DNA of 64,000 nucleotides, taken from the NCBI RefSeq assembly GCF_012910885.1, contig NZ_WTVM01000003.1, forward strand, positions 1 to 64,000, in the 5' to 3' direction. Of the stretch, positions 11,653 through 13,613 are shown one piece after another. The notes under the pieces are model-generated. The model saw only the letters and a list, made by a program, of their open reading frames with translations. It was not told the DNA's origin and ran no database searches. The stretch's first letter is position 1. Every line of letters begins with the position of its first letter. Made by a program: the position numbers and the translations under genes. The DNA is from Azoarcus taiwanensis (GTDB lineage: Bacteria > Pseudomonadota > Gammaproteobacteria > Burkholderiales > Rhodocyclaceae).

Positions 11653-12507
11653 TCAAGTACCCGAGGGACATGTTTTTTCGGCTCTTGACTCATGCGCCGC
11701 CGCCAGCACCGCTGCCATTACCTCGTGGTCGATCCGCTCGGTGTCGCCGGTTGGAACAAAGGCGGTCACACCGATGCGAATTCGCGCTTCGTTGGTGGTG
11801 ACCATGCGGATGCGAGGCTCGATGGCGGGCATCTCAACGCCGGAGCGACGGCGAATCAGCTGGTTGTAGCGCTGCGCGACTTCCCTGCTGTCGACGATCG
11901 CGGCGGTCATGGCCGCTTCCATCACGCGAGCGGTCTCGGTCGGATCATCCTCCCTTTCGATGGTGATCTCGACGCTGTGATAGACGAACTTCTTGTAGAA
12001 ATTCTCGTTCACGACGTTGGTGGTAAGGAATACGCTGTTGGGCAGGGTCACGGTGCGACCGGTGAAGCGGTGGCCGCGAGCGGGCGGCTCGAGTTCCTGC
12101 AGCGTCACCGACATGATCGACTGGTCGACGACCTCGCCACGCAGCTCCCCGATGCGAACCCAGTCTCCGACCGAAAAGGCGCCGGTGGAGGTGCGAAGCA
12201 GGCCACCGGTGATGCACAGGATGAGCTCCTTCGTGGCGATGACCAGCGCCACCAGGAAGGCGGTCACCGACAGCGCGAAGGTGCGCAGGGCCGGCGCCCA
12301 GATCAGGATCAGGCCGACCACCAGCACCAGCACCAGCGCATTGCGCGACCAGGAGATCAATCGGCGCCGCTCGTCGGGAATGAAGTCCTCGCGACCTCGC
12401 AACAGCTTTTCGACCAGCTTGCGCACCAGCACGAAAACACTGACCAGAATCAGCGTCGAAAGCAGCTGATTGCCGGAGAACAGGCTGGTGAGCGTCTCTT
12501 GGATCAT
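11653..12507 (-). CDS. Small MscS family mechanosensitive ion channel
   Basis: A 284-residue protein with helices at about residues 15-33, 55-72 and 77-105, then the cytoplasmic MscS beta domain (VGDWVRIGELRGEVVDQ, VTLPNSVFLTTNVVN) and an alpha/beta C-terminal domain. It is near the size of E. coli MscS. It probably releases solutes on osmotic downshock. The start codon lies immediately beside a possible inserted repeat element (12508-12740). The inverted repeat of that element supplies GAGG 8 bases before the ATG, so the present ribosome site may come from the element. The gene lies 229 bases upstream of opgG on the same strand. Confidence 0.88.
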   Translation of the reverse strand: MIQETLTSLFSGNQLLSTLILVSVFVLVRKLVEKLLRGREDFIPDERRRLISWSRNALVLVLVVGLILIWAPALRTFALSVTAFLVALVIATKELILCITGGLLRTSTGAFSVGDWVRIGELRGEVVDQSIMSVTLQELEPPARGHRFTGRTVTLPNSVFLTTNVVNENFYKKFVYHSVEITIEREDDPTETARVMEAAMTAAIVDSREVAQRYNQLIRRRSGVEMPAIEPRIRMVTTNEARIRIGVTAFVPTGDTERIDHEVMAAVLAAAHESRAEKTCPSGT

Positions 12508-12740
12508 CGTAGAAACCTCAGTTGGACGCGTTCGAATGTGCGTCTGGTGCGTCGTCTGGCAAGGCGCAACGAGGCAGCATGGTTGTTCCCTGCAACGAGA
12601 AGCAACGCAGCCAGGCGGCGCACCGGGCGTGCAATCGGGCGCGTAGCGGACTCACCCATTGGGTGACCGTTGTCGAAGCTGCGTATCCCAAGCTCTGTAA
12701 GGCATTCAAGATCATGGAGAGCGATCAACTGAGGTTTCTA
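12508..12740. mobile_element. MITE-like element with 15-bp inverted repeats and 7-bp flanking duplication
   Basis: TAGAAACCTCAGTTG at 12510-12524 is repeated exactly, inverted, at 12726-12740. The segment is flanked by the direct repeat GGATCAT (12501-12507 and 12741-12747), as a target duplication would be. No protein I recognise is encoded inside; the interior has a small palindrome TCACCC-ATT-GGGTGA near 12652. This accounts for most of the 350-base gap between mscS and the exonuclease gene. No second copy was seen in the window, so the mobile-element reading is a hypothesis. Confidence 0.5.
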
Positions 12741-12857
12741 GGATCATGCTTGTACCCGCCCTGCGCGGTTCTGGAGATGGACTGCCGCCAGTTTAAGTCG
12801 GGCGTACCGGCGCGTGCAAAACTGCAGACGGGCATGTCGCTCGCAGCGGCTCCCGGC

Positions 12858-13613
12858 TCAGGTCCACAACGCATCGAGCCGGGTGTCCGGCGCGTAGCGA
12901 TGGGCGATCTGTGCCTGCAACAGCTCGCCGGTGGCGAGTGCATCGGTGAGCGCGTGGTGCAGGCCATAGCGTGGCAATCCGTAGCGCGCGCGGCTCGCGG
13001 CCAGACGTATGGATACCTGCTCGGTTCGAGCGAACAGGCGGGCGAAGAATCCAGGCCTGCGGCGCGGATGCAGCTCGGCCTCGAGCGCCATCGTGTCGAT
13101 GGTCGGAAACTCGATGCCCTCGCCGATGCGCGGCTTGAGGGCCTGGTCCAGGAACTGGCGCTCGATGTCACGGCAATGCACCACGACGATTCGCCCGACC
13201 ATTGCCTCGAGCACTTCACCGAGAATGGATTGCAGGTCCGGCGCCTCCTCAACCTGCGAGTCAGTGATGCCGTGAAGCGTGACCGAGGTTTCGTCCAAGC
13301 GCACCCTCGGACGCACAATCCAGTGCCTCGAGGCGCTCGCGTGGATACGCTCGAGTGTCATCGGCACCAGCCCGATGCTGACGATGCCGTCACGCACCGG
13401 ATCGAGACCGGTGGTTTCGACGTCCAGCGCAACCATCGGCACCTCAGCCAGCGGAGTGTCTCCGGCAGGCAATCCAGCGGCGTAGTAGGCTCGCAGGCGG
13501 GGGTCATGCGCGGCGTCGGCGAGCTCGGCGAAACGCGCGGGCCAGTCCGGCGCACGGCGGGCGCGCGGGGTGCGCCTGCTCTCCTTGTCGTCAAGTTTGC
13601 CGAGGTAGAACAT
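12858..13613 (-). CDS. DnaQ-like 3'-5' exonuclease (DEDDh type)
   Basis: A 251-residue protein with an exonuclease domain from about residue 75. Exo I is ALDVETTGLD, exo II lies around VVHCRDIERQFLD, and exo III is HALTDALAT with the expected His and Asp. An N-terminal segment of about 70 residues is poorly conserved. The family includes the proofreading subunit of polymerase III, but this stand-alone form is more likely an accessory nuclease. It begins 5 bases after the cNMP/CBS/nucleotidyltransferase gene. I know this pairing from other proteobacteria, where the two are usually co-transcribed. Substrate unknown. Confidence 0.82.
   Translation of the reverse strand: MFYLGKLDDKESRRTPRARRAPDWPARFAELADAAHDPRLRAYYAAGLPAGDTPLAEVPMVALDVETTGLDPVRDGIVSIGLVPMTLERIHASASRHWIVRPRVRLDETSVTLHGITDSQVEEAPDLQSILGEVLEAMVGRIVVVHCRDIERQFLDQALKPRIGEGIEFPTIDTMALEAELHPRRRPGFFARLFARTEQVSIRLAASRARYGLPRYGLHHALTDALATGELLQAQIAHRYAPDTRLDALWT

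Follow-up and report, generated by a model that had tools for sequence, protein, structure and literature searches.

A MITE at the start codon of an mscS-type gene in Azoarcus taiwanensis: IS1380-like ends, pentamer duplications and a strand-biased conserved structure

In the 64,000-nucleotide stretch of Azoarcus taiwanensis DNA analysed here (contig NZ_WTVM01000003.1, positions 1 to 64,000; hereafter the window), a gene for an mscS-type channel and its upstream neighbour, an exonuclease gene, are separated by a short element whose parts are listed in Table 1. A sequence-only reading had described a 233-base segment with perfect 15-bp inverted ends, bounded by a 7-bp direct repeat that includes the mscS start codon. 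The 15-bp repeats exist as described (TAGAAACCTCAGTTG at 12510-12524 and CAACTGAGGTTTCTA at 12726-12740) and the segment is indeed a discrete element, but alignment with other copies extends it to 235 bp, with inverted ends of 17 bp that differ by one mismatch, in the left end. Likewise, GGATCAT does occur at 12501-12507 and at 12741-12747, but the duplication is only 5 bp long (ATCAT); the GG ahead of the right ATCAT are the last bases of the element, and the GG ahead of the left one is not repeated at other copies. The left duplication does contain the start codon of mscS, as a minus-strand ATG at 12507-12505. Two open reading frames, of 65 and 74 aa and assessed by length only, lie inside or nearly inside the element. 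By its shortness, inverted ends, target duplication, several copies and lack of a transposase gene, 12508-12742 is a non-autonomous transposon (MITE), and the proposal of a miniature element without transposase, inserted at the start of mscS, holds. The sequence-only reading said nothing of the resemblance of the ends to IS1380, of the conserved structure with its strand bias or of the target preference shared across the family.

Table 1. Features of the element and of the neighbouring genes, in window coordinates; for the element, plus denotes the best-folding strand.
Feature	Position	Strand	Basis or remark
MITE, 235 bp	12508..12742	+	copies, ends, flanks, folding
Left terminal inverted repeat, CGTAGAAACCTCAGTTG	12508..12524	+	family form CCTARAAACCTCAGTTG
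Right terminal inverted repeat, CCTAGAAACCTCAGTTG	12726..12742	-	
Target duplication, left copy, ATCAT	12503..12507	.	ATGAT on the minus strand, with the mscS start codon
Target duplication, right copy, ATCAT	12743..12747	.	
GAGG, Shine-Dalgarno-like, within the left inverted repeat	12516..12519	-	read from the sequence; putative function
Long conserved hairpin, 5' arm	12526..12554	+	partner 12616-12644
Long conserved hairpin, 3' arm	12616..12644	+	partner 12526-12554
Small hairpin, TCACCCATTGGGTGA	12652..12666	+	14-base core 77 nt from the right end of the element
mscS-type channel gene, 284 aa	11653..12507	-	PF00924
Exonuclease gene, upstream neighbour of mscS	12858..13613	-	PF00929

Further copies, whose search in the genome and its relatives had been suggested, were found in both. 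The genome of A. taiwanensis matches the element at eight places; six of the matches are full-length copies, five besides the window copy (100, 93, 91, 89, 88 and 78% identity, window copy included), flanked in the same order by ATCAT, ATTAT, TTAAA, ATTAT, ATTAT and ATTAT, with the two members of each pair identical. At locus L003 of this genome, a gene that resembles alaS (as read from the translation) has its stop codon within the duplication. A reading of the flanks as a palindromic target was tried and rejected, the three kinds of flank in this genome being repeated directly and not inversely. Matches occur in 10 of 61 genomes, this one counted, and a single relative (G020) harbors about 22 copies, while among its 18 sister genomes 17 have none and one has a fragment.

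The family extends well beyond these genomes. A covariance model of the interior without the inverted ends (R1, 32 copies) matches 80 of the 399 sampled genomes of the order, spread over 39 of 159 genera, with at most seven candidates scored per genome and a sample that includes the genomes behind the model. When a genome collection was scanned for exact ends lying the expected distance apart, 107 stretches were returned, whose titles include Nitrosomonas, Sulfuricella, Gallionellaceae, Thiobacillus, Hydrogenophilales, Propionivibrio, Formivibrio citricus and Lysobacteraceae; the interior is present in 98 of these 107 loci (71/80 and 27/27), which come in part from genomes also in the later-copy set and may overlap the genomes used to train R1. 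The nine exact-end elements that R1 does not match (L321, L340, L351, L384, L385 and L390; L356, L362 and L388) are either diverged relatives or other cargo between the same ends. In turn, the ends could be examined in 88 model-found copies, and in 83 of these the inverted ends match at 13 or more of their 17 bases. Since the ends occur with the interior and the interior with the ends, both travel together. From the 90 loci gathered with R1, removal of two running off contigs, five with fewer than 13 end matches and five repeats left 78 later copies.

Similar DNA was absent from phage records, and viral contigs had no exact ends; plasmids gave one match. On a Polaromonas plasmid (CP087967.1, 345402-345581; L136), the annotated hypothetical protein LP417_34705 lies almost wholly inside a MITE copy and is probably not a gene. 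In one draft genome (G025), contigs C3, C63, C99, C105 and C122 (L038, L068, L069) begin or end within MITE copies with closely similar scores, so that the element may have been recently active there and be breaking the assembly. Another copy (L344) lies on a contig whose bin carries the label Klebsiella pneumoniae, perhaps through a binning error.

Identical 5-bp flanks were recorded in 35 of the 45 copies of the first set and, when all sets are considered (181 unique copies with both flanks), 116 copies have perfect 5-bp duplications and 163 have at least four of five bases matching. Nearly all perfect duplications (106/116) take the form ATNAT or TTNAA, and 41 of the 116 enclose the stop codon of a gene running into the element, as judged by a crude gene caller. 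This caller relies on codon composition, with a threshold of 0.2 for the tests on G020 and on the first set and of 0.15 for the later copies and the 181-copy set, and sites were treated as independent. In G020, where two of 22 places (the 134-bp and 444-bp forms) lay outside the length limit of the script and entered no test, the stop codon lies in the duplication at 8 of 20 sites, vs 15 of 446 WTNAW pentamers in the same flanks (p = 8e-7), and at 8/18 vs 15/121 when only non-coding sites are compared (p = 0.0025). The later copies, represented by the 47 of 78 loci with perfect duplications, give 15/47 vs 29/670 other sites of the same form (p = 1e-8), and 15/39 vs 29/225 for non-coding sites only (p = 3e-4). 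No such excess is seen in the 15 first-set copies outside G020 (1/15 vs 7/316, p = 0.31). For start codons, the excess is not significant, either in the later copies (4/47 vs 25/670, p = 0.11) or in G020 (3/20 vs 20/446, p = 0.07); the test is crude and overlooks, for instance, the starts of mreD and ispH.

Several G020 copies lie at gene starts: they adjoin mreD, folA (DHFR), a gene for an LPG_synthase_TM protein, ispH, ftsL, ptsI and one unidentified frame of 94 aa. Such genes (mreD, folA, ispH, ftsL, ptsI) are essential in model bacteria. The ATG coincides with the first three bases of the duplication at mreD, folA and the LPG_synthase_TM gene, and starts within the duplication at ptsI (ATCATG). 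At ispH and ftsL, the sequence at this point is ATGATG; sister genomes have CTGATG, which suggests the second ATG as the native start. The gene sides of seven such copies served as queries against seven sister genomes, and five sites could be compared, no sister locus having been retrieved for L174 and L184. The joined G020 flanks align continuously with sister loci at mreD (5), folA (7), ftsL (7), ispH (5) and ptsI (2), among 30 fetched, with 67-91% identity and small gaps; as read from these alignments, five gene-start copies of G020 have empty sites in sister genomes. The exact pentamer is kept in one sister (G185) at folA (CCGCAATGATCGTC) and at mreD, there with six extra bases before it, and the sister pentamer is one base off at ispH, ftsL and ptsI. 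Open frames of 323, 537 and 192 codons stop inside the duplication at mreD, folA and ispH, respectively, and as ATGAT is duplicated, each gene has its own copy of the ATGA overlap.

At mscS itself, the left inverted repeat reads CAACTGAGGTTTCTACG on the minus strand and is followed by ATGATC. The claim that the inverted repeat now supplies the ribosome site stands as far as the motif goes, GAGG being located 8 nt ahead of the retained ATG, but ribosome binding itself is only predicted from the sequence. GAGG is absent from several end variants of the family, e.g. CCTAGAAACGGCAGTTG. The leader from before the insertion, now past the element, has GGCGGGTACAAGC ahead of ATGAT, and without the element the junction would read GGCGGGTACAAGCATGATCC. 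The best mscS homologue, in genome G051, is 40% identical and starts at nearly the same residue (MSETILSHL vs MIQETLTSL), and the ATG is for this reason probably native. No close orthologue turned up among 61 relatives and 297 genomes of the taxonomic family, and hence no empty mscS site was found there. The further suggestion that the insertion gave the channel a new promoter found no support, a simple scan returning no sigma-70-like site in 12450-12900.

Which transposase could move such an element? The best known IS1380-like insertion sequence is ISEcp1. Its end is given as CCTAGATTCTACGT, with duplications of 4-5 bp (PMC7864471). IS1380-like elements of two genomes (G019 and G032) are about 1.73 kb long, encode a transposase of 543 or 552 aa and show the duplications ATGAG and ATGAA; they end in CCTATTTTCCTCAGTTG or close variants, CCTATTTTCCTCAGTTG being the same as the MITE end at 13 of 17 bases, and an alternative IS1380-like end is CCTAAAAACCGCAGTTG. 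Among the pairs with at least four of five flanking bases matching (8 of 20 loci), perfect 5-bp duplications were found at six IS1380-like loci: ATGAA, ATGAG (twice, at duplicated loci) and, at three loci of G104, ATTAT, TTTAT and TTAAT. The 543-aa transposase is recognised by the Pfam model DDE_Tnp_1_4; among NCBIfam models it scores highest with IS1380 (148.5 bits), below the cut-off of 180. The elements are named IS1380-like because of this shortfall, though the Pfam model is matched and their ends and 5-bp duplication are like those of the IS1380 family. Several of them have CACCCRATGGGTGA 76-77 nt from an end (at the start of the transposase in G019), and the same hairpin lies 77 nt from the right end of the MITE, where 19 bases are identical to IS1380-like elements. 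Both kinds of element thus share ends beginning with CCTA, an AT-rich 5-bp duplication and a hairpin placed some 77 nt inside one end. They differ in that the MITE has no transposase gene and that, in BLAST comparisons of four insertion sequence loci with the MITE, only the 19-base match and weak short matches appear, the structured interior being absent.

The distribution of the two speaks against this link. In 25 of the 29 copy-bearing genomes searched, that of A. taiwanensis included, no IS1380-like transposase of this subgroup was detected (E 1e-8), and the other four have fragments. Thirteen genomes have such a transposase, and only four of them are among the 80 interior-bearing genomes, about the level of chance; G019 and G032, the best carriers of the insertion sequence, have no MITE match. 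The partner transposase may have been lost, may be collapsed in draft assemblies, or may be another enzyme. An IS1380 element of the A. taiwanensis genome (contig C296, L106), the genome's one strong IS1380 match, has an intact transposase gene (392 bits) of another subgroup; it was considered as a parent and rejected, its ends being different. By eye, an inverted pair, AGCCCGCATTTCTCACA, surrounds its transposase gene. Two IS1380-like copies of G019 (L110 and L123), 7.6 kb apart, share both their flanks and their target duplication, a sign that the segment was duplicated; a frame resembling a REP-associated transposase (name read from the translation) now ends inside the insertion sequence.

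The interior of the MITE is a covarying structure favoured on one strand. In an alignment of 42 of the 45 first-set copies (A2; L070, cut by a contig end, L071, of 260 bp, and L041, with poor flanks, were omitted), 56 predicted pairs are formed in 96.5% of 2330 cells, and changes on both sides occur in 34 of the 56 pairs, with 249 such cells vs 69 in shuffles and a covariation score of 0.397 (shuffles 0.165, slid controls no higher than 0.123). The consensus energy is -79.1 kcal/mol on the plus strand vs -30.2 on the minus strand and G-U (G-T) cells outnumber A-C cells on the folding strand by 285 to 28, the structure having been derived from the plus strand of the same copies, a choice that favours this strand; the excess of G-U over A-C in the inner helices has the same direction in 10 of 10 host groups. 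When interiors are folded singly (44 of 45 copies, L070 left out), the plus strand is the stabler in 43 of 44, and composition does not account for the difference in 41 of 44; the sole exception to the strand rule (L071) is a mis-oriented copy that the model places on the other strand. Elements found by their ends alone behave alike: the plus strand is stabler in 71 of 71, oriented by their R1 matches (the nine exact-end loci without such a match being excluded), with compensated changes in 35 of 57 pairs. Fifteen of the 71, from Nitrosomonas bins, have 32-41% G+C, and a structure fitted to the minus strand of the 71 keeps the same bias, with 19 G-U vs 116 A-C. The inner loop appears, from the alignment, to hold stretches between C-G pairs with candidate tandem G-A pairs. 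At gathering score, Rfam has no match in the window; one stray match, to PreQ1-III, scores 15.4 bits vs 63. Any function of this structure is putative.

Transposition with a 5-bp duplication, the form of the target, the structure and the empty sites at loci other than mscS are direct observations on this family. The explanation that best accounts for them as a whole (probability of about 0.85) is a MITE family mobilised by an IS1380-like transposase, with ATGAT duplicated at mscS, tolerance at gene junctions and a structure on one strand. An IS1380-like transposase would most likely mobilise the family in trans. At mscS, insertion would have copied the 5-bp target ATGAT, once the start of the gene, so that the ATG would be retained and the DNA preceding it would now be the end of the element, with GAGG at a distance fitting ribosome binding; the GAGG or GGGG of the end may serve the downstream gene. 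Across the family, the target is a palindromic pentamer (ATNAT or TTNAA) that often includes TGA or TAA on one strand, ATGAT also having ATG. As duplication would leave a stop upstream and a start downstream, copies would be tolerated at tight gene junctions, even where the genes are essential in model bacteria. Finally, the structure may act as RNA or single strand in the life cycle of the element itself, because it is strand-biased and has no orientation bias to host genes. A bolder form of this explanation supposes a mobile noncoding RNA, in which a transcript of the folding strand would act in the element's transposition by an IS1380-like DDE transposase, and evolution would have shaped ends and target to keep two neighbouring genes translatable after insertion at their stop/start junction, even when these genes overlap and are essential in model bacteria; it is tentative, and probably not correct in this full form.

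Other roles for the fold, or none, have to be weighed against this. That the segment is ordinary intergenic DNA with a chance inverted repeat can hardly be true, as no point in its favour was found and it is contradicted by the existence of several copies, by their target duplications and by the empty sites known from other family loci. It is unlikely that the fold is selected in host mRNAs, altering stability or processing within operons: copies do lie at gene ends and between neighbouring genes, and RNase III and RNase E effects are reported for some Correia and ERIC copies (PMC10969869), but of the genes that end in the duplication, 17 are co-oriented with the folding strand and 24 have the opposite orientation (p = 0.35), so that host transcripts often hold the less stable strand, unlike what strand-specific selection in mRNA predicts. 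It is doubtful as well that selection acts on the fold in single-stranded DNA, formed by one strand while the element transposes or replicates, with G-T pairs allowed and no RNA involved. The inverted ends do form part of the predicted structure (helix 1), and a simple scan found no promoter in or near the window copy; the 285 G-T vs 28 A-C cells, however, are best fitted by RNA wobble pairs, and DDE transposases normally have double-stranded DNA as their substrate.

MITEs are a known kind of element, and an insertion at a start codon alone is a curiosity. ERIC and Correia elements, likened to the present family by description as small, intergenic and mobile, differ from it in ends and host groups. 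Their copies can change host transcripts (PMC10969869). The same review describes Chunjie, a MITE of Geobacter uraniireducens that is 235 bp at full length, has several dozen copies and is located in an operon, undisturbed according to the original title, one of two being disrupted according to the review (PMC10969869). Chunjie resembles the window element, by description only, in length and operon location and may be related to the family, although Geobacter appears in no title among the 107 exact-end loci, in a collection that may not include G. uraniireducens. For QMITE1 and QMITE2, MITEs of Coxiella burnetii, stable folding of the transcripts has been predicted; their duplications are 2-4 bp and 7-9 bp vs 5 bp here, and the stem 'covari' is absent from the text of that paper (PMC5896051). 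No description of the present family was found in the titles and abstract openings of the open-licence literature surveyed, which is not proof of absence.

Taken together, interest in this family is raised by its breadth, by the empty sites at ATGA overlaps and by the strand-biased, covarying interior. The family illustrates how a transposon can settle in gene-dense operons almost harmlessly: copying of the pentamer can preserve the stop codon ahead of it as well as the start codon that follows, and a sequence resembling a ribosome site is present in some of the ends. DDE-type ends are combined here with a strongly covarying, strand-biased structure in about one-fifth of the sampled genomes of the order, and whether a transposase-free DNA element has an RNA role is now a testable question.
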